64,000 nt of DNA from NCBI GenBank assembly GCA_021234155.1, contig JAJEKV010000041.1, positions 5,942,829 to 6,006,828 of the forward strand, read 5' to 3'. The notes below the pieces were generated by a model. It had not been told where the DNA came from. It was given only the letters and a program-made list of their open reading frames with translations, and searched no databases. Source of the DNA: Isoetes taiwanensis. Lineage: Eukaryota > Streptophyta > Lycopodiopsida > Isoetales > Isoetaceae. The translations under genes were made by a program, and so were the position numbers. Of the stretch, positions 7,111 through 62,938 are shown piece after piece; position 1 is the first letter of the stretch; each line of letters starts with the position of its first letter.

Positions 7111-7128
7111 TTGCCCACAAGCATATCA

Positions 7129-24242: not shown

Positions 24243-25651
24243 ATGCTCAAGAGGCAGGCTAGGAAGGGGAAGGTTAGGGCTGGTCTGAATTTGTATGCTG
24301 GTAGTATAGATGAGCTCATGGATGTTGCTGGGAAGGGTAGGGGCAGTGCAAGGGCGAGGGAGGATGGTGTAGAGGAAGGTAGTGGTCTCCTTGATGTGAG
24401 TGTGACTCTGGGATATGCAGGAATGGATATCCCAGAGCACATGTTTGATAGTTTGGTGGGTTTTTGCAAGTCTGAGACTGTTGCTGGAGCAGTGGCATTG
24501 GAAAGGGGTTCAGAATTGGACCACCTGCATTGCCAGGCAGTCTTCAGGACGGTGATTAAGACTCCGAGACAAGTGAACACCGCAATAAAGGAGTACTTTG
24601 GTTGGGGTGTTCAAAAGCCAGCGGGTGTGTTGTTGATCTGTAAGGCCCTAAAGAACACGAAGCTTCATTGCTTCGAGGGAATCGTGGGCAGTGTAGGTTA
24701 CGTATGCGTACGTTACGTTTTCCATATGTAAGGTAGCGTACCTGTACATACTGTACGTACTTCTTCATTTTGTGCATCAAATAAGAAAAAAGAAAAATTG
24801 GTTTGTTGTTTACGTACCCGTACGATACGTACTTTATAGGTACGGTACAAGTACTTTTCAAAAAAATAAAAAAATAAATATTTTTTTTTGGGTTAACGTA
24901 CGTACCGTACGTATTTCATGGTACCGTACGTACCGTACGCGTACTTTAAACAACAACTTTTGACGTACGTTTGTACGTTAAACTGGCCCTCGTACGTTAC
25001 CCTGTACTGTACGTTGCATACGTAATATACACGTATGGTACGGAAAGTACGGTACTACACTGATTGTGGGCTATTGTCTAAAGGACTATGGGAAAGTCCA
25101 TTATAAGGTCTGTCTCGATAATGTGACCGAAAAGCAGATAGAGATAGGCAAGGATCTTTATCTGAGGTATGGTGCAGGAGATTTGAAGAACCTTGTTGTG
25201 TTGGACAATAAGAATGTTTTGCAAAGGGCTGCCCATTACGTTAATTACCATGGTAGAAAACAAGTGTCTGCTAGTTTGGTTTACACTGTTTTGTCGCATG
25301 CTGCGGACGAGGAAGTTCGTGTTGTCCAGTCAATGGATCTTGCCCACAAATACTGCCTTCATATCTGAGCACAGAGTGAAAGCAGCTTGGCGGATGACAT
25401 TGAATCCTGAGCATGCAATGCCTAGTGATGTGAGGTGCGTGCTTTTTGGTGTTCCTGCTGGTATGCAGCCAGTGAAGCGGCTTGGGAAAGCGAGGAAGCA
25501 TTATTAGGATGATGCAGATAGCAAGGGTGATGATGATGAACACTTCGTTGATGCACAGGATGAAGAGTACAGGCCTGATGCAGAGGGAGACGGAATGGGA
25601 TCTGACTTCATTCCTTTGAATCTGGCTGATTACACCATGGCAGTGGGCTAG
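24243..25651 (+). pseudogene. HUH-superfamily (Rep-like, single-tyrosine) endonuclease gene, interrupted by a MITE
   Basis: The first part (ATG 24243 to 24688, 149 codons before the insert) contains a strand segment DVSVTLGY (motif I-like) and ALERGSELDHLHCQAV, whose His94-Leu-His96 is an HUH metal-binding motif. After the insert, the matching frame resumes with GYCLKDYGKVHY; Tyr at 25072-25074, followed by C-L-K, fits the catalytic motif III of Rep proteins. The region beyond (to about 25368) is a basic helical segment. A frame change occurs near 25350, a TAG at 25505-25507 breaks the new frame, and an acidic tail runs to TAG at 25649-25651. I see no Walker A/B, so no helicase domain. This suggests a Y1 transposase such as those of replitrons, or an endogenised CRESS-type Rep. 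A short 5' exon (24064-24144) before a GTATGC donor is possible. Confidence 0.72.
24689..25062. mobile_element. hAT-type MITE, 374 bp, GTAC-rich, inserted in the HUH gene
   Basis: It starts CAGTGTAGGTTACGTA and ends with the inverse TACGG...GTACTACACTG, so the termini are inverted repeats beginning CAGTGTAG. Flanks ATCGTGGG (24681-24688) and ATTGTGGG (25063-25070) form an 8-bp target duplication with one change. The interior is dense in GTAC/CGTACG palindromes. Removing the element and one TSD copy restores continuity of the frame around the Gly before YCLK, which confirms the boundaries. Confidence 0.88.
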
Positions 25652-26424: not shown

Positions 26425-29049
26425 TGTAGGTGCATGCATTAGATGCACGACATGGTGTGTTTGAGCATTTGAGATCTGCATCCAAGTAGAGATGAAGAAT
26501 GAATTGCAAATACAAAACTGGAAAAAAAAAAAATTGCTTGCCTTGTTTCTACATGTCTGTGTGAGCATGTTTGCATGGAATTAGCCCCCCGGCTTTAGTC
26601 CACGGTGGAGCACCGAGGGTTCGGCTTCGTGAAGGGGTTCAAATCCCCATGCCCCAGACTCTTTTGCTTGTGCAGGTTATGCAGGTGTTGCGAGGCGGTG
26701 ATTGCATGGCAGAAGATGTGGCCTCCTCGTAAGGGAACACGTGTTTCAGTAGCTTGGTTCCATGACATCTACAAATGCAATGGTAAGCACTGCATTTGAA
26801 TTCTTCTTCCTTACTTGCTAGGTAGATTTGATTGCTTCTGAATGTGGTAGACGATTGAGGTTTATTATAAGTAGTTGCATAAGCACTTGTTGTAGTTCTT
26901 TGTTATAACACAAAGAGACATCAGGGTTGTCTGATGTGAACGCACATTTGATTTGCTATTGAAGAACATTAGTTTACCTGGTCCCTCCAATAAAAACAAA
27001 GTTTTTGTTCATTAGATTATTTAAACTTGGAACAGAACATCAGCATTGTGTACTCTGATGATGTAGTATTGAAGAACACAAGCTTACGTGGCCCCTTGAA
27101 CGAAAACAGAGATTTCATTCATTAGATTATCTGAATTCAGAATTTCTTTGCACTTGAGCATGGACTCTATGGTGGAGTGGCGGACTCAATGGCTATGACT
27201 TCTGTGCTGATGCTATTGGGGCAGTTTAGATGTTGGGCATGACGGGGGTAAATATTGTGTTCTGATGGACTAACTGTTGTTCCTCTTATGGACTCACACC
27301 TTGTTGTCTAAGTTGAAGTGCAATGAGAAGCAAGAGTTTCCTCTGTCGATTTCAACTGCATTTTATGTCTGTTGGGGTTGTCTCATATAGGTTCCATGTG
27401 CTTACACCTCTCCAGCTATGTATCTTGTGGAGCATGCAAACAATCTCGGGCTGCCAGTATGCTAGTCATTCAATATTGCTTGATTTATAATTTATATGGA
27501 AGAATTCAAAGCCATTCTATGCTTGCAGCTGGCAGTAGTAGTGGTCTTTGTAGGCATTGCTTCTATATATATAAAATATGCTAGAAGGCACATACGCAAC
27601 TGAAAATGGTAAAACCAAGGAAGCCTTACTTCTAACATCAGGGTGGTAATCTTATTCTCTGCTCATGACATGTAATTTATGACTGAAGCTTTATTGGTGC
27701 AGGATTTGAAATGTTGGAATTGTTTTATTCAAATGTTTAAAATGTTTGCAGATACATGTTTCGCTTGATGCCTCATGCTCAGCAGGTTTGCATGCGGGAG
27801 AAGCTGAGATGACATGTACATGCTGCTGCCACCATACATCCGGCCAGAGTGCTTTAGTTCATGGTTCCGTTTGAAGGTTAAGGGGTTTGTTGCATACTCT
27901 TACACAAGTTGTTGTTCTATTTGAGCTCATTGTATTTTATGCTGTGAATTTGTTGTTCTATTTCAACTAATTCCACTTTTTGCTGAATTCTCTGGCAACT
28001 GGGGTTCAAATCCCCTCATGAGTTCTTCTGTGAGATGTTGGTATGTTGATTTGTATTTTGACTTGTTGCAAAGGTTGGGAAATCTTATGCTGAGGTGGAA
28101 ATGGGGATTTGACCCCATCATGGACTTGGTGGACGGTCTGAAATCCAGGAAAAGGAATATCCATAAGAATATTGTGTTCATCAACGACCCAAAACATATT
28201 GGTGCAATTTGTCAGCATTCTTATTACTGCCACGGTTTTTCCCTCAAAAACCTTTCAGAATGGGGTTTTTTAATCCCGACAGTAATGCGTCTTTTGTGCT
28301 CTTTTTTGGGTTGCCCCTAGGGGGCAAACCCTTGTTTATGTGGGCTTTTGGCATATCCTAGGTATATGCTGGAATATACCTAGGATATGCTGTGACTGCT
28401 CCAAACCTGCTCTTACATGTAAACTCTCGGTCGCCATTGTTGCCGTGCGGCTGGTGTGGGAACTGGTTAACCGGCACCGCCAAGCATTGGAGCAAGGTCC
28501 ATAATCTGGTGTGGGAACTGGTGTTGGAAGAAGGGGGGATTCAGGTAAGCTCCTTCACTCTTTGATGATTCAAAACTGCCGTGACCCCTTTTCTAAAACC
28601 AGATCAAGGAAATAGATGGATTCTTGGATTTGAGTCTCTCTGATACTCAATTCATCTGATACCCATTTCAATCGGCATAATTGTGGCTGTATCTGTCCAG
28701 AAAACCTATTCTAAAGATTTACAGTGGCCTAATTCATAAAAAACTTTCGACCCATCCGGTCTTTTCCTAATTTCCAGCCGATGAGAGGACACCCTGAATT
28801 GCACTCTTGGTGAGCCTTCACCAAAATTATTTGACACAATAATTTGATATTAAATACTCGAAAACCATATTCTATTACATGAGAGATGATGCCGTAATTG
28901 CATGTGCAGCCTTATAATGCTGTAACTTCCTGGAAAATGGTCCAGAGATCTCTGATTAGGGTGTGACTCTTTATCAGGTATTTTTGATTTGCCACAGGAG
29001 TGCAGTGTTTGGATTTGGATTTGTGATTAGATCTAATTTGGGAGATTTG
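26425..29049. other. No gene recognised; LINE 3' module at 28200-28320
   Basis: Short ORFs only. GGGGTTCAAATCCCC boxes at about 26634 and 28003, with an inverse-like GGGGATTTGACCCC near 28105, resemble tRNA T-arms but lack a tRNA body. The segment 28213-28320 (TTCTTATTACTGCCACGGTTTTTCCCTCAAAAACC ... TTTTTTAATCCCGACAGTAATGCG) repeats the LINE 3' hairpin module of 6300-6410. Replication termini of the HUH element may lie in the left part of this stretch but I cannot define them. Confidence 0.4.
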
Positions 29050-29230
29050 TTTTCACACCTCGTTCGATTTTGGTCTCAGATATCGTGGCGTTCGGCCACG
29101 ATATGGCCTCGGGGCATTATACCGTGAATCTTGCCTCACACGCGTACCGCCACTCCCACCGGTGGCGTGTACACTAGCGGTAGCCAGGTGAGTAGCCCTA
29201 GGGGGCAACTTGCCAGAAATATGTGCAACT

Positions 29231-29373
29231 ATTAATGTGCACATTTTCCAATGTACACATTAATGTGGGCACACATTTCCAAGTGGACACTTCAATCCAA
29301 GTGGGCCACACCCATAGGTGCAATTAATGTGCACATTTTCCAATGTACACATTAATGTGGGCACACATTTCCA
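29231..29373 (+). repeat. 51-bp direct repeat pair inside the LTR
   Basis: ATTAATGTGCACATTTTCCA and its following 31 bases occur at 29231-29281 and again at 29323-29373. The same pair is kept in the 3' LTR at about 40937-40987 and 41028-41078, so it is ancestral to the LTR. It lies in the likely U3 region. Each unit is rich in ATTAATGTG and its inverse, a plausible factor-binding enhancer repeat. Confidence 0.85.
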
Positions 29374-30701
29374 TGTGTGCACATTTGGCCACCTAGCCCT
29401 TAAAAGCAAGTGGGCCCATTTCCAATTATCCCACATGCCAAAAGGGGATAATTGGAAACCCTAACGAACCCCCTTGTCTATATAGGGTAGGAAACCCTAA
29501 CTAGCCCAATTTTTCGATTTTAGGGCTTGAACTCTGTTTTTGGCTGCCTCAACAAATTAAAACCGCATCCCGAACATTTGGGAGAATTGCATCCTTAGTT
29601 TCTCTAGATTCGAAGGCGTTTTTGCCAGGATGGTCGAGCTCAGTCGAGGAGGCCCTCAAGGATGGGGTATTTGGCCAATTAGATAGTCTAAACCCTATTT
29701 TAGTCATTGTATCGGTAGGTTTAGCCTATTAGATTGGCCATAGCATTCCCTCTAGATCTCTAGATAGCAGATTCTAACTAAAGAACCTAACTCTATGTTG
29801 TAGATTAGATCTTATTCTTTAGTTCTTACGTGATGTATATGGATGATGTATCTCTATGAACTCCTTGTATTGGGAAGGGGGTAGAGACCTAAAGCTTTTG
29901 TAGTCGATGCTCCTAGAGTAGCCTCTCTAGCACCACTGTAGTTGCGGCACATGTGCACAAGAGCCACACCGGTTGTGGGTGAAGGGGCAGACCGGGCTTA
30001 TAAGGAGGTTCGTGTTCGACTCTTGAGCGATTCCTATGGTGTGTTAGTGCTACGGGGGGATCATTGTGACTAGGTCTAATGGCTTGCCAGCGTGTGGGCA
30101 AGGCATGGGCTCACACTCGTGGAGGTGGTGAATATGACCTTCCATTGAGTTCAAGTCGACACGGGCAAAGGGCCCTCTAGTCACCTTGAGTCAAACATGT
30201 AGATCTCGGAGGGAGAGATCCCTACCTGCCCCATCGAACCGGGGAGATGCAACCCGGGATATAGCCCCTTGGCTATGCATCCGCTGGCTACGGTCAGTCC
30301 CAACACTTTTCAGCCTACTCCGCAAAGTGTGCACGGGGGAGGGGCGGATGGAGTGGACAACCCTAAGCCATGCTCATATGCGGCCCAAATCCATTGCCAT
30401 GAATTACATGCCTCAGATCGACTCGAGACCCAAGCCGCCGGGTCATCCCTTGAGTCCGAGCCTTGGGTAGGACGCCTTTGTCTATGCAGAGGATATGTGG
30501 AGGACCATCCTTCGTGATGGTCATATGATGTTGATGTATGTGCTACCGACATGTATGTTTACGCCCGCAGCCTAGGTAGGCCCCGAGGGAGGCGGGTGCA
30601 ATGACCCTTCCACTCTTCCCCTTTGGAACCCGCCACGGTTGCGGTGTCATGTGGAGGGCCCCAGATTAGCATGGAGCTGGTATGGGGATGAACTCACGGT
30701 T

Positions 30702-30725
30702 GTATACGGTGAGTGCACCGTATAC
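30702..30725 (+). promoter_or_regulatory. Perfect hairpin near the 3' end of the 5' LTR
   Basis: GTATACGGTG and its exact inverse CACCGTATAC flank a 4-base loop. The same hairpin is intact in the 3' LTR at 42420-42443. Conservation in both LTRs amid nearby indels suggests a constrained or well-sequenced element. Its role is unknown. Confidence 0.7.
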
Positions 30726-30744
30726 GCAGTAGGGGACGCCATTG

Positions 30745-30755
30745 TGGTATCGAGC
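30745..30755 (+). other. Primer-binding site of the chromovirus
   Basis: TGGTATCGAGC matches the tRNA-Met PBS (TGGTATCAGAGC) with one base lost. It lies three bases after the LTR end. Confidence 0.7.
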
Positions 30756-30947
30756 TATGTTCTTGGAGACCAAGAGCAAAGCAACCGCCATGTTCCCGAG
30801 AGCACTAACTTGATAGGATCCTCAAACCTCGAAAAAATGAGAAAATTTTTTCTCATTTTTGTAGTTTATGCTAAGCTAGTAACAGTTAAAATGAATAAAA
30901 ACGTAAAAAGACTAAAATTGATGAGCCAACATCCAAAAAGTAGGGTG

Positions 30948-31010
30948 GTCTCACACGTCGCGCCAGGACAGATTTCTACATTCTAGAAATCGGCCAAAAA
31001 AGTCTTAGAC
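30948..31010. promoter_or_regulatory. Imperfect palindrome, copy 1
   Basis: Left arm GTCTCACACGTCGCGCC, inner ATTTCTA-CATT-CTAGAAAT core, and a decayed right arm (AGTCTTAGAC). The most degenerate of four related copies; it precedes the H3-tail ORF module. Confidence 0.75.
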
Positions 31011-31131
31011 ATTCAAATTTTGACACCAAAAAGTTGTAAATTACAGTAAAATACCTTAATAATTCTAAATTTAAGCTAAGAATTAGTAGATTTGGCATGT
31101 TACATGTTAATTTAATAGTGGGCCCCACCAT

Positions 31132-31198
31132 GTCTCACACGTCGCACCAGGACAGGTTTCTAGATTCTAGGAATCAGGCTGGGCGCAACGTGTGAGAC
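31132..31198. promoter_or_regulatory. Imperfect palindrome, copy 2
   Basis: Left arm GTCTCACACGTCGC and right arm GCAACGTGTGAGAC are inverse complements apart from small bulges, around an inner TTTCTAGATTCTAGGAA core. It lies 75 bp upstream of the TATA box at 31274. Confidence 0.85.
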
Positions 31199-31273
31199 CT
31201 TGCTTAATTAGGTGTTTTTAGGTGCTCTAGACAACCCAAAAAGGTAGTTTAAAAATTGACCTAAAATTGGCCC

Positions 31274-31281
31274 TATAAATA
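31274..31281 (+). promoter_or_regulatory. TATA box of accessory module 1
   Basis: TATAAATA in the context CCCTATAAATAGAACC, 107 bp upstream of the first ATG of the H3-tail ORF. The position suits an internal pol II promoter separate from the LTR promoter. Confidence 0.6.
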
Positions 31282-31380
31282 GAACCAGACCCCTCCCATT
31301 TTTCCTGTTCTTCCCTAGAACTTCGCTCGTGACTGTCAAGGCGATCTTCGGGCGCTTAGCTCCGATCGACAAACCGTAAG

Positions 31381-31605
31381 ATGATGGCCCGCACAAAGCA
31401 GACTGCAAGGAAGCCTAGCCGAAGCGGATCCTCCAGCGCCAGCGGCTCCGGCCTCTTTCACAGGATTCTTCGGGAACGCCTTCTCCACGGCGACGAATCT
31501 TCGTCGAGCGAGGAAGCAGGGTCGGACCGGAGCGACCACACCGAGCTCTTGGAGGATGACCGGCCAGATGTCATGAACCAGATCCTAAATTTAAATTGGC
31601 GCTGA
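31381..31605 (+). CDS. Accessory ORF A, N-terminal part: histone H3-tail mimic
   Basis: The ORF starts ATGATGGCC and encodes MMARTKQTARKPSRSG. Residues 3-11 are identical to residues 1-9 of mature histone H3, including the Lys4 and Lys9 sites; after K9 the sequence leaves H3 (PSRSG in place of STGGK). The rest (to codon 74) is Ser-rich and acidic, with no histone fold, so this is a tail, not a histone gene. Translation from the second ATG, which has A at -3 and G at +4, followed by Met removal, would expose an H3-like N-terminus. The frame ends at TGA 31603-31605, but a Gln-rich frame continues in +1, so the native protein was probably longer. By inference it could bind H3-tail readers or writers. 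Confidence 0.75.
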   Translation: MMARTKQTARKPSRSGSSSASGSGLFHRILRERLLHGDESSSSEEAGSDRSDHTELLEDDRPDVMNQILNLNWR

Positions 31606-32570
31606 AGAGGAAAGAAGCGCAGCAGCAGCAGGAGCAACACCAGGAGGACGCCAACCCACGGTGAAGAGCAGAGGGAACAGCGGACCCATCAACAGCCTCA
31701 GAGCAACCCCAGGCCGAGATCCACCCGGCAGGAGGAGCAGGGAAGAGAGGAGCAAAGAGCCACGGAACTCACCCCTAAGAAGAGGCCGACCCGCGACGCT
31801 TCGGCCCACAAGTACGGCCAAGGAGCCACGGAACAGAGGACAAAGAGTCGGGAAGACGACCGACCACTACGCAACGGACCCAAGAAGAGGAGGGCCAAAG
31901 CCGAAGCGCGTGCAAGAGGAAGCCGGGTAAAGGCCTGAAGGAAGCGGAAGGTCCCCACATCAACGAAGCCGCCCGGGAGGGGAGATTCCCACCCACCACC
32001 GAATTTTAATGGGATGGAGACTACGTGTCGGGCGCAGACGGGCAAGCTCTTCAAAGCCCCGTCAGAGAGGAAGAGGTCCCGAGCGCATGCAACCCCAAGA
32101 AGGGGAGGAGACCGGACATTAGCAAAGCCCCCACCGCTCCAACGTGGGATAGAGTCAAAGCCCCGGGCCAAGAACGGGAGGTATATGTGATAGACCCCTA
32201 AAGGTCTACCGAGAAGAGGATCAAGGAGCACAACGCTTATATGGCAAGGTGGGAGGCGCATAACGATATTACCGTGGAGCACCGGGTGAGAACGATTGAA
32301 GGCGACACCGACCTAAGAGCCGCATTAATCAAGCCCCCTCCACCAAAGCCCAAGCCTCCCCGAGCACCAGGGGAAGAAGCGGAACAAGAAGAAGAAGTGG
32401 AAGACGGGGCACTCAAGGAGATCCGCCACTTCCGTAAGAGTTACTTGACTCGATTCCCCCGCCGTTCCGCGTTTGGTCCGAAGTCATACAAGAATACAAA
32501 CACGCATTACGCGCGCGATGACGAGATGCCGCTATGTTTACAAGAGGGCGCCGGGCGCATATAGTAAAGC
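31606..32570 (+). pseudogene. Accessory ORF A, broken continuation
   Basis: GC-rich sequence coding in several frames for charged, Arg/Glu/Pro-rich protein, for example the frame at 31661-31930 (basic, Arg/Pro-rich) and at 32241-32564, which has PPPPKPKPPRAPGEEAEQEEE and a KEIRHFRKSYLTRFPRRSAF segment. The latter is the most protein-like part. No family is recognised. It is followed by AT-rich sequence with AATAAA-like signals (32690-32730), as expected of a 3' UTR. Confidence 0.45.
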
Positions 32571-32812
32571 ATTTTGAAGATTCAACTACCGCGACGGCAC
32601 GCCAAGAGGGTTACCCTCATGAGGCAGGATATGTATCTTGCCAGGCACATCAAGGGTGAACGACCTTGAGTTTTGTAAATAACTGGGAAATTTTGTTAAT
32701 ATAAAGAAAATTTTGTGTAAATAAAGTGTCAAACCTTGTTTAAATAGGTCAAGATATCGATCCCTAGCTTTTGTTTTAATTAAATTAGAGTTTTGAGCAA
32801 AATTGAGACGAT

Positions 32813-32881
32813 GTCTCACACGTCGCGCCAGGACAGATTTCTACATTTTAGAAATCGGGCCGGGCTATAACGCGGTGAGAC
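32813..32881. promoter_or_regulatory. Imperfect palindrome, copy 3
   Basis: GTCTCACACGTCGCGCCAGG...CGGTGAGAC, with a perfect inner ATTTCTA-CATT-TTAGAAAT core and a slightly altered right arm. It begins the regulatory region of accessory module 2. Confidence 0.8.
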
Positions 32882-33013
32882 CATGCCCAAAAATGCCCAA
32901 AACAGCTCCAAATCGACCAAGTAAGGGGTCAATTCTGCCTAACTCGATGAGTTTAGTGGAATTACAGCCTTAGATCACCTAAATTGAGTAATCCTAGCCC
33001 AATTAGGACCCAT

Positions 33014-33080
33014 GTCTCTCACATCGCGCCAGGACAGATTTCTACATTTTAGAAATCGGGCTGGGCGCAACGTGTGAGAC
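33014..33080. promoter_or_regulatory. Imperfect palindrome, copy 4
   Basis: GTCTCTCACATCGCGCC...GGGCGCAACGTGTGAGAC with the same inner core. It lies 180 bp upstream of the second TATA box. Confidence 0.85.
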
Positions 33081-33259
33081 CTCGTACCATTTCTTCACCA
33101 AATGATCTCCAAGTTGTACAATAGGTTCAGTAGTTGTCCTTAGCATGCTCAAACCCTAGAAATAGTCTTCAAACTTGCAATTGCATCCCTTAATAGGTCA
33201 GAATTGCCTAATTTCAGTAAATTCTAGGCCACCCAAAAATTAGGGTTTCCCCCTTTTTC

Positions 33260-33267
33260 TATAAATA
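33260..33267 (+). promoter_or_regulatory. TATA box of accessory module 2
   Basis: TATAAATA in TTTCTATAAATAAGTCC, 115 bp before the ATG at 33382. The context and spacing mirror module 1. Confidence 0.6.
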
Positions 33268-33381
33268 AGTCCCCCATTTCTCAATTGGCACCCTGCAAAT
33301 TTGCTCCCCACTGCTTAGGCGATCTTTCAGCTCCCTGAGGCGCTTCTGCATCCGTTTGATACTCCCTTCTTTGCTAGATCA

Positions 33382-34818
33382 ATGGCTACTGCTGATTTTG
33401 GGCGATGGTACAGCGCCAGTGCCCATGCTACTGAGGCGGATGTCAACGACATCTTCCAAGTCTTTGTGAAAGAAATTGACATCCAAGCTACGTTAAATGC
33501 AACCCCAGCATATAGGCAGGTGCTAGCAGAATTTCAGGCTAGGGTAGGACCCTCCCTTGTCCAAGTCCCCCCTTGCATAGGATACTTCGTTCCCCGCCCG
33601 TCCCTTCAAGCAGCCTTGGGCGATGTCCCCAACATCGCCAAGTACTTGACTAACAAGGCGCAGAGGGTCGCTCGACTACATGGTCCCCGACAGCCAACAG
33701 ACCAAGTACTTCTCTTACACCGCCCTAGCCATCTTCTTATCCCACCGCCGAGAACCCGATGGGGGCAACCTCTATCCCTCCGATGGAGGTAGACCCCATA
33801 GCAAAGGCAAGAGGAAGAGCAAATGTTGTTGCAAAGATCAACAGAATGAGGAAGCAAGAGAGGATGAAGAAGAGTCGGACGACGAAGGATACACCGAGAG
33901 CTCGACTCGCACGAAGAACGGCGCCAAGGAGAGCGGGGAGCTGATCAATTTCGAAAGCCAGCAGGTGGCATCGAGTTGCTCCCCACCGGGCTAGGCATCA
34001 CAAGCCTAGCCCCTATCATCATCGACGGAGAGGAGTATCTACTCCTCGGCGACATCCGTAACCTTCCCGAATGCAGGGAGAGGGAGCTCAGTTGGATTTA
34101 ATCGCTTCCACCACAAGCTGGCAGACCGACATGGACGACTTCATCGTCCGGGGAGCCTCAGACTTCCCGCTTCAAGTGAGGGAGTCCGACACCTACACAG
34201 GGGAGACGACCTCCGATATCCAGGCCTACAGCAGCATCAGGCAATTGATGGACGAGCGGGAGCTGCCAACAGAGGAGGAGTTCCTCGCCCTCCAAGAACA
34301 GATGGGGATCCGTGGGAAGACCACGAGCATCCTAATGCCGGGTCCTTCGATATCACCCCTGCCAAAAGGAGAAGGAATCGACCTCAGGAGGCTCGACCGC
34401 ACAATTGAAGACTACAGGGAGCTCACCGAAGTTGAGGTCGACGAGTACGCTGGGCGGCACAGAGCTGGAGGCCAAACAAGCGGAGAAGCTTCGGCGACAC
34501 ACAACGATTGTGTCGCCAGTACTACTTGCCGCCGATGAATGGGAGAATAGCGGTAATTCACCGCAAGTTCAGTCCCAGAGGCGAAGAAGGAGTGTTTATG
34601 CTGATTGCACTCTCAGGCTTCGGCAGGCATGCTCGAATAGCAACAAATGTCGACTATGCTGTCTTAGTCAAGAGGGCAATGGCACTCGACCTCTTCGACT
34701 TCGCCATACCCCACCGACGCCAGCGAGATTATAATGGATCATGCCCCTTACATCCGACCGCAGGTAGAAGACCCGTGAGAGCCATCCAGTGGAGGCTCGC
34801 CAAAGAAGCATCATCGTG
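33382..34818 (+). pseudogene. Accessory ORF B, unknown protein, frameshifted
   Basis: The first frame (33382-33792) begins MATADFGRWYSASAHATEAD and reads as folded protein up to about codon 105, before shifting. An acidic/basic low-complexity part follows near 33800-33990 in another frame. Then 34071-34538 (MDERELPTEEEFLALQEQMG, VEVDEYAGRHRAGG) and 34508-34819 (MNGRIAVIHRKFSPRGEEG, GVFMLIALSGFGRHARIATN) continue it. No gag zinc knuckle, protease or other known domain is seen. It may be a second accessory protein of about 480 residues. Transposon origin is inferred from its position between the LTRs. Confidence 0.5.
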
Positions 34819-35150
34819 AACTTGGGTCACTTTCGGTAGGGACGGCCCAAGTTAAGAAGTTTCTTGAAGACAACCCGCCTTACCCACGCGATTTCAAGAC
34901 TAGTTAGACTCTTTGATCCCGGAGACTTTTGTATCTAAAATATTATATGATATATAAATACAATTACGCTGACTTTAAATGTTTTGTTGATGTATTTTGC
35001 CCCACAATTATACCAACAAACATAAACAATGCAAGAGAACAAATGGAACTAATCATATAGCCATGAATTGCTTGTGTATGCAGCCCGCAGAGGCCTAAAC
35101 GCTAGTGGGAACGACATAAATCGCGAGACCTTATAGAAGAACAAACCCCG
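34819..35150. other. Spacer between accessory module 2 and gag
   Basis: AT-rich, with ATATTATATGATATATAAATAC at 34945-34970, resembling a 3' UTR or a further TATA-bearing region. TGTATGCAG at 35075-35083 could be a splice acceptor leading into gag. Confidence 0.35.
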
Positions 35151-36330
35151 CCTGCACCCCCGGCAAGAAGGAACCTATTTGAAGATAGGGAACCCATGAC
35201 CCCAGAGGAGGAGATAGCCCAGATGAGGACAGACCTGGAGCAGATAAAGGCATTACCGTCCGCAAGCAAAGGGAGTGGGTTCTGGTGGGCAATGCTCGCT
35301 TGCCGCAAGCATCAGCTCTGAGGGAAGGAAGGGACAAGAAGAGGAGCAAGAGAAGGAGATCCCCAACCGAATCTTCCGACTCAAGTTCGACTCAGACCGA
35401 CTCGAGGAAGAGGAAGAATGTGCTCGTGAACCAACAGAGGGAAGGCAGAGGAACACCCCAGAGGGACTATTAAAGAGATACCGTGGCCTCCGACTACCGT
35501 AAGAAGGTAGATTCCGCGACCGGGCAATGTATGGAAGGTCTGGAATCGGAACAGTTCTCGGGGAGAACAGTCGATTGGAAGCAGAGGCATGGCTGGGACT
35601 AAATGAGCGAAAGTATGGAAATGCTTATGGCATGAAGGATAAGGACAAAGGCAGAGTTGCAACAGCCAACTTGAAAGGAGCCGCCGGATTTGGTGGAAGG
35701 GTTATGCAAAGGCACACGGCTTAAGCGGGTGGATGCTTGTAAGTTCGAAAAGTTTGCTAAAGCCTTCAAGCGCCATTACGCTCCGAGGGAACATAAGTCC
35801 AAAGATGATGCCAGCAGTTTTACAAAGTTACTTACAAGGCAACAAATCGCCCGTAAATATACGAGAGGAATTCATGAGGCTAAGGTCAGATGTGCCGGGT
35901 TGGGAGAGAAGCATGCAAAGAGAAAGCTATATTGAGGGGTGAATGAGGAGATCCGCGAAGTTTGTGAGGGCAATAAACCCTAGGACAAGATCGTGTTTTA
36001 ATCCAAGGCTATAAGCTTGCAGGGTCGAGGACCTCGTAATAGCGGGCACAAGCAAAGAAGATTTCCGTGATAAAGGCAAGGCGACAGAAGCTATAGCCCT
36101 GTGGCAGCTAGCCCAGTCCAAGCCTAGAGCCCCATATGGTGGGAACCAGGGGGAAGCAAAGGAGAGAAGAAGCGTGTGTCCTTCAAGGACAAGCAGAGAG
36201 GTCAAACTACTCCAAAGCAAAGGTAATCCTTTTGCAAGCGATGCCCAAGGAAAAGAGGCAGGAGTGCATAGAAAAGCAAATGTGCTTCGTGTGCTTCCAG
36301 CAAAGCCATAGGACAAAGAAACCGCCTTTA
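35150..36330 (+). pseudogene. gag: gag of the chromovirus, broken
   Basis: Frames starting near 35150 encode an acidic N-terminal region (PMTPEEEIAQMRTDLEQIKA). The typical Gypsy gag core follows at 35730-35990, where EFMRLRSDVPGWE and EGLNEEIREVCEGN-like strings appear in adjacent frames. A zinc knuckle follows at about 36270-36320 (CFVCFQQSHRTK), which keeps C-x2-C and H but lacks the last Cys. At least four frame changes are present. The product would have been the nucleocapsid/capsid protein. Confidence 0.65.
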
Positions 36331-36499
36331 CGCCATGAGTGCAGCTCGAAGCGGAGTTGGGAGATTGGGACGCCGTCCGGGTCCGACGACGACGGGCCGA
36401 AGAGGCCCGCGACTACATTCGTGGTGAGTGTCACATCTTTGCCGCAATAGATACAGAGAAAGCAGAGAGCCAAGATAAGGTAATTTCCAAGAGGGAAGG

Positions 36500-36830
36500 C
36501 CAAAGCTAAGTCCTTCATAGTCTTGATAGACTCGTGAAGTAGCCATAACTTTGCATCCCCTGCAATGGTTCAGATGTGAAGTTGAAGCCGCTTAAAGTCA
36601 AAGCCAAGACCCGTTGTTTTAGCAAGTGGTGTAGTAAGCGCGACGGGCGGGCAAGAGAATTAACTTCGACATCGACTTGCCGTGGATTAATATCCGATGG
36701 GGCAGAAGTAATGGGCATTGGAAAGTATGACTTGATCATAGGAATGGAGTACCTCAACAAAGCAGGGCCATTATCGATCGTGGAAAAGCGGAAGGTGACC
36801 TTCCCAACGCCCGACGGCAAAGATCATTGA
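36500..36830 (+). pseudogene. pol: Aspartic protease domain of pol, active site broken
   Basis: VLIDS at 36520-36534 followed by TGA, then SSHNFAS, is the LIDSGASHNF active-site motif with its Gly codon replaced by a stop (36535-36537). The downstream flap/C-terminal motif DLIIGMEYLNKAGPLSIVEKRK (36729-36792) is well kept and in an open frame (36576-36830). The enzyme would have cut the Gag-Pol polyprotein. Confidence 0.75.
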
Positions 36831-37039
36831 GATAACAGTAAGCAAGTTGCTCCCATCATGCAAGGTGTATGTCTTCTAAACTACTGTTCAAGTGCATCAA
36901 GAGTGAGCAAGTGGCATACATCTTCAAGCTCGAGATTAATGAGCCGGAATCGGAAGGAAGCAAAGAAGACAAGGTGCTCAAAGAAGTTGCCGGGCAAGTA
37001 GCTAAGCTGATCACGGAGTTCCATGATCTCTTTCCGTGA

Positions 37040-37760
37040 TGAGATCAAGCAGCCCTCCTTATAGGGGAGTCGAAAAGCGAGATAGCACTCGAACCAGAAC
37101 AAAGCCAACAAGCAAGGCTCCATATAGAATGACAACGCAGGAGTTATCGGAGTGAAGAAGCAGCTATGAGGAGTCGCCGACCTAGGTTTCATTAGACCTA
37201 GTGTCTCGCCGCTTGGAGCCCATTCTTTTTTGTCAAGAAGAAGGATGGATCTTTGAGAATGTGCATAGACTATAGACGCTTTGAATAAGCACACCATTAA
37301 GAACAAGTATGCGCCTTCCAAGATCGACGACTTGATGGATCAGCTCCAAGGTGCAAAAGATCTTCTCCAAAATCGACTTAAGGTCAGGTTATCATCGATC
37401 AGGATAAAGGAAGAAGATATCCATAAGACCGCCTTCGTAACGCCGGTATGGGCATTATGAGTTCACTGTGAATGGCTTTCGGCTTATCAAATGTTCTCCC
37501 AACGCTCATGAGACTCATGAACGATATCTCTTCAGGAGTTCCCCGGACACCTTTGTGATTGTTTTCTTTGATGACATTTTGGTGTATAGCAGATCCCTTG
37601 AAGAGCACGCATAACACTTGAGAAGAGTGCTAGAGAAGTTGAAGAGGCACCCGCTTGTAACGCCAAGTTGTCGGCGCCACTTCGCAAATGTAGAAGGTGG
37701 AATACCTTGGTCATGTGATCTCGCCAGAAGGCATCTCAACGGACCCCGCCAAGATTGAAG
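37040..37760 (+). pseudogene. pol: Reverse transcriptase domain of pol, frameshifted
   Basis: The motif order of Ty3/Gypsy RT is readable across frames: [11 protein letters not shown] near 37245, KNKYALP-like near 37300, [11 protein letters not shown]-like at 37370-37400, RYGHYEFTV near 37445, and the catalytic box VFFDDILVYS at 37561-37590. Small indels shift the frame at nearly every motif. It matches the RT of the minus-strand chromovirus at 63156-63866. Confidence 0.8.
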
Positions 37761-37999
37761 CCGCCATTCAGTGGGGCTACCAAGAATGTGCATGAAGTCG
37801 AAGTTTCCTCGGCCTAGCAGTGGTACTACAGAAGTTCGTGGAAGAACTTTTGCTAAGATAGCAGCCCCGCTAATGACCGACAAAGGGCGTAGAAGGTGAA
37901 AGATTGGGTAGAGCATTGGCACAAGAAAGCCCAAAAGGGGTTTGAATTGTTGAAGGAAGTTTTAACAACAGCCCCTGGGCCTTAACCCCTCACGGACCG

Positions 38000-38340
38000 G
38001 AGAAAGATAAGCCGGGTAGCAACAGATGGTAGTAAGATAGCTATTGTGTGCAAAGTGTTTATGCAAGAAGGGCGGTGGTGGCGTATGATTCCGTGAAGAT
38101 GAACGACGCCGAGACGCCGCCACCCAACGCACGATCAGGAATTGCTTGCAGCTTGTCGTGGCATTAAGAATATGGAGGCACTACCTTTGGGAAGGAAGTT
38201 CCAGCTTGGATACGCACCACCAGAGCCTCCAATATGTATTCACGCAACCACACCCTCAACCCGAGGGTAGAAGGTGGATGGAGTTCCTTGAAGAGTACGA
38301 CTTTTGATATAGTCTACAAGCCGTGGAAGCTCAATGTGGT
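38000..38340 (+). pseudogene. pol: RNase H domain of pol, frameshifted
   Basis: NDAE-like AERRYPTHDQELLA (38105-38150, in shifted frames), RIWRHYL (38165-38185) and LEEYDF (38292-38310) follow the order seen in the intact frame at 62276-62905. Decayed. Confidence 0.65.
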
Positions 38341-38599
38341 AGCATATGCTTTCAAGGCATCCCCCGACAACTAGAGTGCATTGCAACGCAATTTCGACGA
38401 TATCCAGCCGACTTTGGTAAGAGGATTGAAGAGTCCTTGCCAACGGACGGGATTTCAAGGAAGTATGGGCAAGTCTCTAGGGAGGCTAGAAATGATAAGG
38501 AGCGGGAGGCCTTTAAGCATTTTAAGAAGGAAGGCAACCTCGTTATACCATAAGAACAAGTTGTGCTGCACTAATCATCGTGTAAGGAAATTGATCCTC

Positions 38600-39330
38600 C
38601 ACGACACGCGACAAACAGCCCAATAGCCGGCCATGCGGGATTCATGAAAACATATTTCAAAGTACGCAGCAGCCTATTATTGGCCGTGAATGAAGAAGGT
38701 GTAGCTCGCTACATCAAGGAATGCCAGCCTATGTCACAGACAAAGGCGAGGGCCAATTCTGTGGGCATTGAGCCATTAGCGGTGCCAAACGCTAAGTGGG
38801 AGGTAATCAAGATGGACTTCATCACGTGACTCCCAAGGACAAAGAAGAGGGAAGGATGCCTTGATGGTAGTGGTCGACAAGTTGTCTAAGATGGCACATT
38901 TTGTGCCTTGCGTGACCACGATACAGCCTATGGATACAAAGAAAGCTCTTCACCAAAGAGATCTTCGTGCTTCATGGCATGCCAAGTGAGATCATCTCCC
39001 CATGTGGATCCAAGTTCATGAGTGCCTTTGGCAAGACCTCTTTGCGACGATCCGCACGGCTATCCATGAGCACCCAAGATATCATCCATCGATGGATGGC
39101 CAAACATCGGAGCGGACCAACAGATTTTAGAGGACATGCTATGAAACTATGTCCGAATAAGCAAAGTATGTGGGAAGAATTTATTCACTTGGTGGAGTTT
39201 GCATACAATAGCACCAAGCAGAATCATCCCAAATGTCGCCGCTTATGATCAATTACGGCTATCGCTGTTTAACTCCGCATAATTTGGCACAACCCCGCGG
39301 TCAAAAGTGGAAGTTTCGCAGCAGATGTTG
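38600..39330 (+). pseudogene. pol: Integrase of the chromovirus, frameshifted
   Basis: H2C2 zinc-binding remnants at 38600-38730 (AGHAGFMKTYFKVR-like; YIKECQPM), KWEVIKMDFIT at 38797-38829, VVDKLSKMAHFVP at 38870-38905, HGMPSEIISPCGSKFMSAF at 38970-39026 (second Asp of the DDE triad altered in the frame shown), and EEFIHLVEFAYNSTKQ at 39175-39222. The C-terminal VGDDVWLKIKVKQ is at 39440-39480. It would have inserted the cDNA into chromatin. Confidence 0.75.
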
Positions 39331-39689
39331 GGGCGGATATGCAAAGCAGCCTTGTGGAGGAGGTTCGTGGTTATCCGCTAGCAAAAGAAGAAGTCGTCAA
39401 GAGCATCGCCGACAAGCATCGAAAAAGAAGAGAGTTCAAAGTTGGAGATGATGTTTGGCTCAAGATCAAGGTGAAGCAGCTAAGCTCGTGGATTGGGAAT
39501 TGCAAGAAGCTTGCTCCAAGGTGGGCTGGTCCTTCGTAATAGTCGAGAAAGTAGGTAATCAAGCCTACAAGCTAGACTTGCCAAAGACACCTAAAGATTC
39601 ATAAGGTCTTCCACGTGAGTTTGTTGAAGAAGCATACCCCAAATCCGCATTTAAGTCTTGATTCGCCAACGTTGTTGGAAATGACGAGG

Positions 39690-39850
39690 AGGAGCAACTG
39701 GAAATAGTTCCGCACTGATTCTTGATAAAGCTTTCAAGAAAACGAGGAGATCGAATTCCTCCAAAGATTTGGTCAAGTGGAAACACTTACCGCTGGAAGA
39801 CGCGACGCGGGTACTTAAGAAAGATTTAGTAAAGCAAAGATCCACAATTT
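39690..39850 (+). pseudogene. Chromodomain-like tail of integrase
   Basis: A VKWKHLPLEDAT string at 39774-39809, after KAFKKTRRSNS-like sequence, corresponds to LVKWKHLPAEDVTWV in the second chromovirus and to the core of a chromodomain. This places the element in the chromovirus clade, whose integrases target modified chromatin. Frameshifts lie on both sides. Confidence 0.65.
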
Positions 39851-40770
39851 ATGGAGCAATGGGACGCAAGGTCATCTCCCAAGAAATCGCCCGTGCATGT
39901 CGATTTGTGTAGGTTAATTCTTGTGTAGTTAAGATTAATCTACACGATACAACCCACGCTTTTAGTATGGGTCGCATGCGTTGTTACCGATGATGGGACC
40001 ACTACTACGGTGATCTCTAGGGCGTGGTGTAATGTCAATGTAGGCATGACCGCATTTCCGCTTGGGCGAGTGGAAGATAGATTAGAAAGTCTACTGTCCC
40101 ACTAAGTAGACGACCTCGAGAGAAAGGAGGTCATGAAGGAATGCATTGATAGGGAAAGCACCTTTAGCCCCATATATGCTTTGATAGGAGGAATCTATCC
40201 TTCATACCCCACGCGAGAAGGATATCCTCCACACCGGGCAACTAGAGGTGTAGGCACGAGCGCATATAGGCATATAGGGCGCCCGCTCCGCGGCCATAAT
40301 GGAAGATTCACCCTCTTCCTACGCCGGAGATTAGCCATGCATCCATGTAGATAGGTGGGGGTGGTCACCATATAACCAAAATTTTATTTAATAATTAAAT
40401 GGTACTAACGTAGTGTCGACCGGCAGCCAAGAGAGAGAGCCCTGAGGGCAAGGAGGTTCAAGTTATTTAAGACTTGCAACACAAATTTTGTTGGAATGTG
40501 TTGCAAGGAATGAAGAGGACCCTGACGTTAATTTTAAATTTTGATAAACTTAATTGTAATGTTAAGTGAATTTTGGAGTAACTGCTAGTAATGTTGTGAA
40601 TTGATAAGTTATTTTATAATATAATAATGTGATAATGTCATAAAAATATTACCCTTAAAGTAATTTTAATAAATGTGTAGGAATTAGAGTAGTAATCGAT
40701 GTATCAAGTTGTTGCAAAAGTTAGGTTGATCCCAAGGTGGAGATCCACCATGTCATGGACAAAGATCATT

Positions 40771-40785
40771 TCAAGGTGGGGAGAA
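40771..40785 (+). other. Polypurine tract
   Basis: AAGGTGGGGAGAA directly before TGTGACGTT of the 3' LTR. The second chromovirus has AAGGAGGGGAGAA in the same place. Confidence 0.8.
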
Positions 40786-42460
40786 TGTGACGTTCCAAAG
40801 ACCGTGATACCTACGTGATCGATATACCGCATCGCCTCGGCCACGCTGCGCATTACGCCACACCCAAACCGACGGTACACTAGCGGTAGCCAGTGAGTAG
40901 CCCTAGGGGCAACTTGCCGTAAATATGTGTAACTATTAATGTGCACATTTTCCAATGTACACATTAATGTGGGCACACATTTCCAAGTGGACACTTCAAT
41001 CCAAGTGGGCCACACCCATAGGTGCAATTAATGTGCACATTTTCCAATGTACACATTAATGTGGGCACACATTTCCATGTGTGCACATTTGGCCACCTAG
41101 CCCTTAAAAGCAAGTGGGCCCATTTCCAATTATCCCACATGCCAAAAGGGGATAATTGGAAACCCTAACTAACCCCTTGTCTATATAGGGTAGGAAACCC
41201 TAACTAGCCCAATTTTCGATTTTAGGCTTTTGAGTAATCCTCGCTTTTTGGCTGCAACAAATTAAAACCGCATCCCGCACTCGACCGGGAGAATTGCATC
41301 CTTAGTTTTCTCTAGATTCGAAGCGCCAGCCAGGATGGTCGAGCTCAGTCGAGGAGGCCCTCAAGGATCGGTATTTGGCCAATTAGATAGTCTAAACCCT
41401 ATTTTAGTCATTGTATCAAGAGGGTTTAGCCTATTAGATTGGCCATAGCAGTTCTCTAGATCTCTAGATAGTGATTCTAACCAAAGAACCTAACTCTATG
41501 TTGTAGATTAGATCTTATTCTTTAGTTCTTCCGTGATGTATATGGATGATGTATCTCTATGAACTCCTTGTATTGGGAAGGGGGTAGAGACCTAAAGCTT
41601 TGTAGTCGATGCTCCTAGAGTAGCCTCTCTAGCACCCCTCAGAAGTTGCGGGTCAGGCACAAGAGCCACACCTGGTTGTGGGTGAAGGGGCCGACCGGGC
41701 TTATAAGGAGGTTCGTGGTTCGACTCTTGAACGATTCCTATGGTGTGTTAGTGCTACCGGGATCATTGTGACTAGGTCTAATGGCTTGCCACCTGCGGTG
41801 GGCAAGGCATGGGCTCGACACTCGTGGAGGTGGTGAATATGACCTTCCATTGAGTTCAAGTCAATACGGCAAAGGGCCCTCTAGTCACCTTGAGTCAAAG
41901 ATGTAGATCTCTCGAGGGAGAGATCCCCACCGCCCCATCTGGAACCGGGAGATGCAACCCGTGATATAGCCCCTTGGCTATGCATCCCGCTGGCTACGGG
42001 GCCAGTCCCAACACTTTTCAGCCTACTCGCAAAGTGTGCATGGGGAGGGGCGGATGGAGTGGACAACCCTAAGCCATGCTCATATGCCGCCCAAATCCAT
42101 TGCCATGAATTGCCTCAAGACCGACTGAGACCCAAGCCGCCACCATCCCTTGAGTCCGAGCCTTGGGTAGGATTCCCTATGTGATGTGCCGATCTTTGTC
42201 TATGCAGATATGTGGAGGACCATCCTTCGTGATGGTCATATGATGTTGATGTATGTGCTAACCGACATGTATGTTTACGCCAAGCAGCCTAGGTAGGCCC
42301 CGAGGGAGACGGTGTAATGACCCTTCCACTCTTCCCACCGGAACCCGCCACGGTTGCAAAGGTGTCATGTGGAGGGCCCCCAGATAGCATGGAGCTGGTA
42401 TGGGGATGAACTCCTGGTTGTATACGGTGAGTGCACCGTATACGAGTAGGGGACGTCACA
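40786..42460 (+). repeat. 3' LTR of the 13.4-kb chromovirus
   Basis: 1675 bp, from TGTGACGTTCC to GGGGACGTCACA, with 8-bp perfect inverted ends (TGTGACGT/ACGTCACA). It aligns with 29050-30741. Differences are mostly small indels in GC-rich stretches, while AT-rich blocks of over 100 bp are identical. Confidence 0.88.
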
Positions 42461-45400
42461 GTATCTAGCCTTTAAAGCTTGCTTTTATAGCTTGGGTGAG
42501 CTTGTTGTAGGTTTGGTGCAGACAGCCGTTTAGTCTCTGGGAGCCAAGTAGAGAATCCATAAGAGAGCCAAGGAGCTTCTTGCCCGGGCATGAAATTAGG
42601 TTGAGGTTTCTCTTTCAATATTCTGAAACAATGGAAGCTGAGGAAGAAGGGTAATCATGAAAGATCTTTTCGGCAGAGTATGGCTCCATCTGAGAGTGCC
42701 GTTGTGATAAGGTATGGAATCCTATTTACCATCCTTAAACATTTTAAGCTCAATCTGCATGTTACAATATTCTTCTCTAAGATGCTACAATATTTGATAG
42801 GGATTAACTCCCAGCTTTCAGCCATGTTGCACATAAAGCACATTGTTCCATTGTTCTCAGAAACAATACTGTAGGTAGTGGAGGAATTATAACATGGTGT
42901 TGTTGTCATCAAAAGCCTCAAGATGAAGATGTTGAAGGTATGTTGGCATCTTTGTTGCTCCTTCCAATTTGCAACCTTGAATTTATTCCATTGAAGCTCC
43001 TGCTTCCTTTATCGAATGATGCCAGCTGGCTTGCAAGGCATCTGGCATTTGGAAGTAATAACTTTGCTAGAGAAAGGTATTCCATCGTTTTCCTGTTAAT
43101 TGGACAGCCATGGCCTGCAAATGTACGTATTTTTTTAACTCACTAGTGGGGATAGAAAGCTTTCGCATGTACTCTTGAGATGAATTGCAAGCCAATAGAA
43201 AGTTTCTGATAGTGGCATAGAATTGATGCATGTTCGTCCATTTTCAGGTGTAGTAGACATACTTTTTGCATGCTGATCCAAGATTCGCTGCTGCGGGTGA
43301 AATTCTTTTAGGCTTAGGCATTTTGGTTTATCTGATGACGGCTAGTTACGTCTAAATTGATATGCAAGTAATAGATATGCATGTGGCTTTGGACGATGAA
43401 TAAATGCATTGACTACATCCATTATGTGTTTGATGCAGGATGCTGCTGAAAAATTAACCTTAGAGTGTTTCAATAAGTGGGCTTCAATGAAGGTAATATT
43501 CATAGGTTTCTTGAAAATATGGAGAAAGCATGAGAGCACGAAGTTTGCCTTAAATAACCACTTAAAAATACTGTCCAGAATATGAAGCGTCAATGCAGAA
43601 TGTCAGCACCATCATGCAGTCGACTTTCTGGTATTAAATTTCTTCATAGCCGCATCTTGGATCATCATCAGAATACTCTCAGGCACATGTTTATGGAAGT
43701 TTTGATTTCTTAGGTTTATAAGTTCTGCTGTATGCCTATGTAGAAGAAACCCTTACTTTGATGCTATCTTCTTCACCATAGGCTCTATTACTCTTTATTA
43801 TGCTTACGCCTAAGAATGATCCTGCAGAGCTTTACGATGGTCTAGAATACTGAAAAGGAAGGAGATAGAAAAGGAGATATGTTGTGATTCTGAAGAAATA
43901 TGCAGTAATTGACCCTGATCATTTGAGAAGCCAGAATTGGTTATAGATTAAAAGACCGATAGAGCAGAGAAATGCCATTATGTATTCAATCTGTAGTTCT
44001 GTAGAGGGCATGCAAGAGCTGCACATTAGGTATGTGCTGGAAAGGCAGATAAGATGTTGACAAACTAGCCTTTAAATTTTGAAACGGTCAATCCGAGAAA
44101 GGCATCAAAGGAAGCTTCACGGTGGTGGACCTAATTTTGAGCAGCGCCATCATGCTTGAGAAAGGATATCAATGAGTTTATGCGGCATGACAAAAAACAA
44201 TCCTATATAATCCAGCATGCAGCCCAAAAAGATGTCCTTTAATGCATTGATGTGATAATTTATGGTCCTTAAGCTATCCAAGATATTTAGATATGGAGTC
44301 TCTTTATGCATTAATGTGATAGTTTATAAAGTTCTTAATATGTATAGATTGTATAGAGTGCAGACGAAGCACTAATTATTCTACCAAATAACCTATGATT
44401 CCAGTCACGTTTGAATGCCAAGAGGTTCCTGATAGTTTTCAAGCTCATGTTGGTATGGTTGCTTTAGGAACCATCTTGCACAACCACAACTTAAGACAAA
44501 AAAATATTTAAAGAAGCATTGACATCATATATTGCAGAAAAATGAAGAGACATGAAATGGATACTAAATGTTGCATATGGTAGAACAATGATTTTGTTTG
44601 TTTGCAAGATCTAGATTGTTGTATAGGATTTGAGATGTATGAGCAAGGGTTATCATTGTAACATAATAATTATCTTTGCTTTACAGGGGATATTGACAGG
44701 GGATATTGACAGATAAACAAGAAGGGTTGAATGTTAGCAATAGTCACATTGATAGGTTGAGACTATTAAAGGGATATTGAAGGGGAAACAAGAGGGGTTG
44801 AATGTTAATAATAGTCGCAATCGACTCTTAGAAGGTTTGCTATAGATGTTTATAAGATTTTGGCCAAAGGTTGGGTTGGGTGATTTTTTTTTTTTGTATT
44901 GGCTTTTATTTCAATGGTTCTTCTACTTCATATTTTTCTTTTTTTGTTAGTTTCGTTTCTACGTTTTCGCGGGACAGGGGCCAGATTCATGCATGTGGCC
45001 CCTGTTCTAATCTGTTAGTTCCTGGCCTGCGGGATGTGGCTGGCTGGGATTTGGGCTTCCTTTCTTGGCAGAACCTCTTTCCTGCATAGCAACGATGAAA
45101 GAAGAGGGCAACGGTTTTACCGGGGTTTTACTCTCTGGCCTCCTCTGTTTTGCTCCACTGTTTTGTCTTCGCTCAGACCGCAGATCTGCACTTATGGAAG
45201 AACCATCGATTGGTCTTCAAGATGGCTACTCGATTCAACCTGGGATCGTCAGATTCATCTGCTTTTTTTACTCTCCTCTGTTTCGCCTTCGCTCAGACCG
45301 TAGTCTTCTGTTTCGCCGTCGCTCAGAGCGTAGGTTAGCTATATTTTGTGACCTGTGCTTCGAAGCACAGATGCTCTCTCTGCTGTCAGATGCTTAGTGT

Positions 45401-52482: not shown

Positions 52483-52806
52483 CTAATGCTTCGTACCACC
52501 TATTCTCTTAGTCCTACTAGTCCCACAGTAAATGGCTGCTGGATTGGTCAGAAACCCGAGGTCTTCAAATAAGTGTACTAACCATCTCATTTCTTGAACT
52601 GTTGTAACCAAAGCTTTGTGTTCAGCCTCAGTAGTACTAATGCTATTAGTCTTCTGCTTTTTAGAACTCCAGCTTATAGGATTGCCTCCAAAGAAAGAGA
52701 TAGCATGTGATGCATTTCCTTTTCTCAAAATCCGTGGAAGCCATGTCGGAGTCTGAGAATAGTAAAAGACGAGGATCTGAAACTTTGGAATACAAAACTC
52801 CTTCAT
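52483..52806 (-). mobile_element. Ty1/Copia RNase H fragment
   Basis: The minus frame holds NPISWSSKKQKTNSISTTEA followed by EH, the hallmark Copia RNase H segment (family: WSSKKQ-VVALSTAEAEY), and MRWLVHLFEDLG, the following conserved helix. Only this end of pol is present, without RT or LTRs nearby. Confidence 0.85.
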
Positions 52807-53001
52807 TTGGAGTCCCTTTTAGATAATGAACCATTATTTGACTTTAGCATTCCATTCCACGATTCAATAACTTCCCAAAGCCCCATCTGTGCATGACTTG
52901 GCATTACATATACTTGAGGTTCTAGATAATCAGCTTTAATTATTGAGTCCTAAGTAGTCATTACCACCTACTTATATTTTCTTCTTGCTTGTCTAGTATC
53001 A

Positions 53002-60482: not shown

Positions 60483-60497
60483 TTCTCCCCTCCTTAG
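60483..60497 (-). other. Polypurine tract of the second chromovirus
   Basis: The minus strand reads AAGGAGGGGAGAAT directly before TGTGACGTT. Confidence 0.85.
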
Positions 60498-61833: not shown

Positions 61834-61848
61834 ATAAATATAGTCAGC

Positions 61849-62905: not shown

Positions 62906-62938
62906 TTTCTTTGAATCATAGGCAATAACCCTCCCCTC

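Follow-up and report, generated by a model that had tools for sequence, protein, structure and literature searches.

An ORF with a histone H3 tail-like start in a broken chromovirus-type Ty3/gypsy element of Isoetes taiwanensis

An ORF between the LTRs of a broken Ty3/gypsy element in Isoetes taiwanensis opens with the tail sequence of histone H3. Within the window, i.e. the whole stretch of 64,000 nucleotides that was analysed, this ORF occupies 31381-31605 (+) and comprises 74 aa (full translation MMARTKQTARKPSRSGSSSASGSGLFHRILRERLLHGDESSSSEEAGSDRSDHTELLEDDRPDVMNQILNLNWR). Sequence and translation bear out the predicted start, MM-ARTKQTARK-PSRSG, the codons from 31381 being ATG ATG GCC CGC ACA AAG CAG ACT GCA AGG AAG CCT AGC CGA. 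Counted from the second Met, the next nine residues agree exactly with residues 1-9 of mature H3, as the original prediction had claimed. The match breaks off sharply after K9, where the ORF has P10 and H3 has S10, and the residues behind ARTKQTARK form a Ser-rich, acidic, non-histone stretch. Our preferred, though tentative, reading is that the ORF is the start of an accessory gene of a chromovirus-type element, the product of which would work as an H3-tail mimic.

A profile search against Pfam recognised no histone fold in the ORF, with no family reported at E values of 1 or less, and a PDB search with the ORF returned one irrelevant match at E 1.7. None of the six frames of the whole window contains any of the later H3 motifs KSTGGK, TGGKAPRK and KQLATK, so the claim that the ORF lacks a histone fold stands. 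The ORF is thus an extra reading frame between LTRs without gag-pol homology, as are the accessory ORFs (aORFs) of plant elements, and its sequence encodes the unaltered H3 tail peptide in a protein that is not a histone. The coordinates of this ORF and of the features around it are collected in Table 1.

Table 1. Positions in the window of the H3-tail ORF, the two modules and the elements
Feature	Position	Strand	Basis or remark
5' LTR of element A	29168..30741, ends approximate	+	blastn 29169-30738 vs 40875-42455; flank alignment
Putative primer-binding site TGGTATCGAGC	30745..30755	+	sequence, just behind 5' LTR
Module 1 palindromic box 1, mainly left half kept	30947..30993	+	fold z -1.8, equalled by many shuffles
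Module 1 palindromic box 2	31128..31203	+	hairpin -37.6 kcal/mol, z -6.3
Module 1 TATA-box-like TATAAAT	31274..31280	+	
H3-tail ORF, MM-ARTKQTARK start	31381..31605	+	start (31381 or 31384) and length uncertain
ARTKQTARK codons (H3 residues 1-9)	31387..31413	+	sequence
Peptide of the H3-tail start, candidate H3-tail mimic			ARTKQTARKPSRSG
Stop codon of H3-tail ORF	31603-31605	+	
Further open stretch, 120 aa	32202..32561	+	open frame; no Pfam match
Module 2 palindromic box 1	32809..32886	+	
Module 2 palindromic box 2	33010..33082	+	
Module 2 TATA-box-like TATAAAT	33260..33266	+	
Module 2 ORF MATADFGRWY...	33382..33792	+	open frame from ATG 33382
Probable gag remnant, broken	35100..36450, approximate	+	by eye only
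Pol remnant, broken: RT, RNase H, integrase, chromodomain-like end	36998..39837	+	colinear with element B
3' LTR of element A	40875..42457, ends approximate	+	blastn, flank alignment
Element B, better preserved, runs off right window end	58500-64000	-	RT, RNase H, integrase, chromodomain

The frame of the H3-tail ORF opens with two Met codons, ATG 31381 and ATG 31384. Only use of the second, followed by removal of its Met, would expose Ala1 and give an H3-like N-terminus; use of the first would leave Met-Met ahead of A1. Many PHD-type readers depend on a free H3 Ala1. Leader alignment was considered as a way of identifying the second ATG as the old start, and this was dropped, as the pairing had been forced by pieces cut just behind the ATG. 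With free ends, 31384 was paired with 33382, the ATG of module 2, in 0 of 9 settings, and because the pairing is gone in all nine, the shared leader does not tell which ATG is the old one.

The length of 74 aa is not to be trusted, and the ORF can be relied on in its first stretch only, because a second reading frame is also open across 31385-31573, overlapping the ORF, and because the element is full of indels. The two LTRs of the element differ from each other by 55 indel events (34 of one base) against 41 substitutions (18 transitions), which makes the frames of the element unreliable. Such an indel load, with no excess of transitions, suggests uncorrected long-read assembly errors in repeats; a host RING gene in the same window is open across 436 codons. 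The frame breaks in the element and the stop at 31605 may therefore be artefacts or decay. The open stretch at 32202-32561 is possibly the later part of the H3-tail gene in another frame, although this is a guess.

The element that contains the ORF, element A, is by sequence a broken chromovirus-type Ty3/gypsy element. Its LTRs, at about 29168-30741 and 40875-42457, are about 91% identical with gaps counted, and the ORF lies between them as predicted. The sequence TGGTATCGAGC just behind the 5' LTR is close to the plant initiator-tRNA-Met primer-binding site; neither a target-site duplication nor a polypurine tract was recognised by eye in the LTR flanks. Element A matches a second element, element B, colinearly over 36998-39837, with changing frames and 28-74% identity in pieces, and the order RT - RNase H - integrase in its pol is recovered through these translated matches. 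The two chromodomains are 60% identical over 40 aa. Matches of element A to Pfam are weak throughout: among six pieces, RVT_1 (0.0079), Integrase_H2C2 (0.0031) and SH3_Tf2-1 (0.014) all fell below the cut-off, and a set of nine pieces that included the H3-tail ORF gave SH3_Tf2-1 (0.0072, below cut-off) as its sole retroelement-type match. The pieces 35675-35932 and 37269-37457 had no Pfam match, and the pieces of the gag remnant that were tested had no retroviral or retrotransposon one. The predicted label “chromovirus” depends mainly on the neighbouring element: element A is assigned to this type because its pol matches element B colinearly, including the chromodomain, and its own Chromo match is below cut-off (E 0.094).

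Element B exceeds the Pfam cut-off for RVT_1, RT_RNaseH, Integrase_H2C2, rve and Chromo (30.9 bits against a cut-off of 25.1 for the last). Its 5' half, where modules like those of element A would lie, falls outside the window. In an alignment to PDB chromodomains judged by eye, its chromodomain seems to carry I at the first cage position and L at the third, with the positions placed by the corresponding HP1 residues. The domain thus seems to be without an aromatic cage and would fit the type II chromodomains, which are described as lacking aromatic cage residues (PMC6317226; PMC3350952, both in excerpt). Recognition of the mimic by the element's own chromodomain through methyl-K9 was considered and is disfavoured: because the cage of element B seems to be missing, there is no obvious case for this chromodomain as a canonical reader of the mimic.

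The 5' LTR and gag of element A are separated by roughly 4.4 kb, which hold two modules that share their orientation and the order of their parts. Each module consists of two palindromic boxes of ~70 nt followed by TATAAAT, a leader and an ATG, and the H3-tail ORF heads module 1. These two promoter-like modules around the ORF are an anatomy that goes beyond the earlier reading of the sequence. A 24-nt core of the boxes (up to 3 mismatches) occurs four times in the window, always at module positions, against an expectation of 0 from 100 shuffles, and the box regions of the two modules align with 68% identity over 276 nt. Folded as single strands, three of the four boxes do well (z -6.3, -3.6 and -4.9) and one does not (z -1.8). 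The leaders also look related, although the stretches compared were chosen post hoc: from last box to ATG the alignment of module 1 with module 2 beats 999 of 1000 shuffle pairs, and from TATA to ATG 998 of 1000. In local alignment, the likeness of the leader to that of module 2 is lost some 12-15 nt ahead of the ATG. The proteins are a different matter, since translated comparison of the two module ORFs within the region returned only the boxes and chance-level matches, and the module pieces had no convincing match in Pfam. Codon-position G+C along both modules did not discriminate the frames, and a bacterial promoter and terminator scan of 30739-35100 is not meaningful for a plant.

Because the boxes, TATA box and leader of module 1 resemble those of module 2, the comparison supports the view that the H3-tail ORF is part of a gene-like accessory unit and not an H3 gene fragment produced by read-through. 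The palindromic boxes could, speculatively and by analogy with the VANC proteins of VANDAL transposons, be sites for a dimeric regulator, perhaps one encoded by either module. Capture of an H3 gene together with its own promoter was considered and is disfavoured, as the boxes and TATA region match the second module of the element. Since these parts follow the element's own module design, and since the leaders look related and the proteins do not, the H3 tail appears to have come without an H3 promoter or H3 body; if it was captured, only some 30-45 nt (coding and near upstream) would have been taken.

Under the mimic reading, transcription would start from the internal TATA-like boxes of the modules and translation from the second ATG, with removal of Met exposing A-R-T-K-Q-T-A-R-K ahead of a Ser-rich acidic stretch that is presumably disordered. 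The product may be a soluble or element-bound decoy that engages readers and modifiers of H3 K4/K9 (PHD fingers, H3K9 methyltransferases, H3K4 demethylases), and it could shift the chromatin of the element to a state that favours expression, or direct its cDNA to a chromatin context. The tail might have been copied from where a host H3 coding sequence begins (some 30-45 nt), or it might have evolved in place. A more far-reaching proposal is that the family encodes, from an internal promoter, a free H3 1-9 tail with a non-histone body, which would shield or guide the element as a decoy or recruiter, and that this gene belongs to a two-gene module under shared palindromic boxes; we consider this proposal as a whole doubtful.

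Relatives of the ORF were sought in several collections. As a short protein it had 7 candidates in the protein database (40-128 aa), and as the start of a longer protein (residues 1-104 of the frame, with X at stops) it had 373 (160-509 aa); in neither search was any match found at E 10 or better. This database is rich in plants. It has possibly left out the genome of the window itself, and TE proteins often go unpredicted, so the absence of relatives is weak evidence. In viral contigs, pattern matches were confirmed for none of the queries, i.e. the H3-tail ORF (0 of 600), the integrase of element B (0 of 4), the module 2 ORF (0 of 21) and the 32202-32561 stretch (0 of 82). In prokaryote genomes, 0 of 593 pattern matches were confirmed, and phage records had no match to the module 2 ORF. 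The H3-tail start is thus known from a single copy, in a broken element.

These results also bear on the alternative that the first codons of an H3 gene were joined to an accessory ORF in one copy or lineage, e.g. by template switching or repair, and that the tail is functionless. This is possible, though on balance unlikely. It would account for the sharp end of the match after K9 (P10 for S10) and for the missing later H3 motifs, which together look like a junction, as it would for the likeness to the module 2 leader that also ends 12-15 nt before the ATG; no sibling that keeps the tail was found in the protein database, and the element is broken. However, a random piece of 30-45 nt would have had to strike a narrow target, namely the start of a promoter-like module that belongs to the element.

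The whole double module of 4.4 kb might instead be foreign to the element. It would then be either two host genes that were captured together or a further mobile or viral element that had entered between the primer-binding site and gag, and the H3-like start would be that of a passenger. The TATA-like and palindromic boxes are not shared by the LTRs, the module pieces that were tested have no convincing Pfam match, and a sense-strand leader of 4.4 kb ahead of gag is unusual. Some inverted box pairs flank module 1 (e.g. 31147-31198 with 32813-32864) and are conceivable as the boundaries of inserted DNA. Against this, all six inverted pairs of at least 14 nt within 30742-35200 are made of boxes, with no other terminal inverted repeat seen there, and the paired boxes have corresponding positions ahead of the two TATA boxes, as would be expected of promoter parts. 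We consider an origin outside the element unlikely.

An origin of the H3-tail start by chance, in which an ATG followed by nine residues happens to equal the H3 tail, is given little weight. The expected number of ATG-ARTKQTARK in the window, taking in 2807 ATGs on both strands, is 7.6e-9 (composition of the window) to 8.3e-8 (composition of 31381-31580), in agreement with the earlier statement that such a match at the N-terminus is improbable, and the match sits at the start of a TATA-led ORF and not at a random ATG. Scaled from the window to a multi-gigabase genome, however, the expectation is perhaps about 1e-3 to 1e-2, and scanning for any striking motif raises it; no conservation was seen in the searches of proteins, viral contigs or prokaryote genomes either. 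Chance is thus unlikely, neither impossible nor negligible, because any striking motif would have been reported. Finally, capture of a genuine histone H3 or CENH3 gene, of which the ORF would be the remnant, would explain the identity of Met and residues 1-9 but is highly improbable, as the three later H3 motifs occur in no frame of the window, no Pfam match was found and the promoter-like region is that of the second module.

A few proteins of pathogens and hosts are known to mimic histone tails. The NS1 protein of influenza A (H3N2) reportedly carries a shorter H3-tail motif at its C-terminus, for which binding is said to have been shown. NS1 resembles the present case in that a genetic parasite has a short piece of the H3 tail within a protein that is not a histone; its motif is shorter, C-terminal and reportedly backed by binding, whereas the one described here has nine exact residues at the predicted N-terminus. 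Histone mimicry by a dengue protein has also been mentioned (PMC8121366, in excerpt) and is not relevant here. Among the open-licence literature matches listed, there was no report of a transposable element with the K4-K9 tail of H3 at an N-terminus. Two of the papers listed contain both the ARTKQTARK peptide and the word retrotransposon; judging from their titles, one deals with histone marks on a mouse retrotransposon and the other with a G9a inhibitor.

Plant Ty3/gypsy elements are known to carry aORFs with their own promoter, e.g. gene23 of maize Grande, which is antisense, and aORFs upstream of gag-pol have been reported less frequently (PMC7264820, in excerpt). Gene23 and the H3-tail ORF are both extra ORFs between LTRs, unrelated to gag-pol and with their own promoter, which is putative in the present case (PMC7264820). 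They differ in that gene23 is antisense and 3' of pol (PMC7264820) and the H3-tail ORF is sense and upstream of gag; also unlike gene23, element A has two modules with like promoter regions and the H3-tail start. Orchid Ty3/gypsy elements have acquired an ORF for AlkB, an m6A demethylase (PMC9289625, in excerpt). In both cases a plant Ty3/gypsy element has an additional ORF for host-type regulation (putatively so here), but the orchid AlkB is an enzyme domain retained over subfamilies (PMC9289625) and the present case is a short peptide in one known copy. In Arabidopsis, the anti-silencing VANC proteins bind motifs that are repeated within the VANDAL transposon encoding them (PMC5735166, in excerpt). 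Element A likewise combines a putative element-encoded protein with repeated non-coding motifs, here the four boxes against 0 expected. Unlike the VANDAL motifs, the boxes are long palindromes before two TATA-like boxes, and the likeness to VANC is one of description only.

If the tail is kept across copies, the element would be an example of a transposon that intervenes in the very histone code by which it is silenced, and the peptide would lend itself to direct tests of proteins that read K4 and K9 in unmodified or methylated form. If it is not kept, the ORF is a curiosity of one broken copy.

Several other features were observed in the window. Rfam over 28500-43000 gave two matches up to E 1, both to mir-5014 and one in each LTR (29215-29372 and 40935-41060, -); they score 30.8 and 27.6 against a gathering threshold of 101 bits and overlie an inner direct repeat of the LTRs. 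The stretch 24982-25365 (+) matches Pfam Replitron_HUH (E 2.6e-6, 28.2 bits, just below the cut-off of 28.5) and may be what is left of a replitron transposon in this plant. At 52486-52818 (-) the translation resembles, by eye, the RNase H end of a Ty1/copia element (STTEAEHKALVTTVQEMRWL). The host RING-H2 E3 ligase gene lies at 7078-8385 (+) in one uninterrupted frame, and 2184 of 8000 scored candidate proteins match it (7126-8385) at E 1e-10 or better. The first 14 of the best 120 matches share 40-53% identity with the query across 65-100% of its length and include Turnera (first, 40% over 65%), the liverworts Riccia, Marchantia and Calypogeia, and the lycophyte Diphasiastrum. Mosses and Selaginella stand just below these 14 among the best 120 of the 2184.
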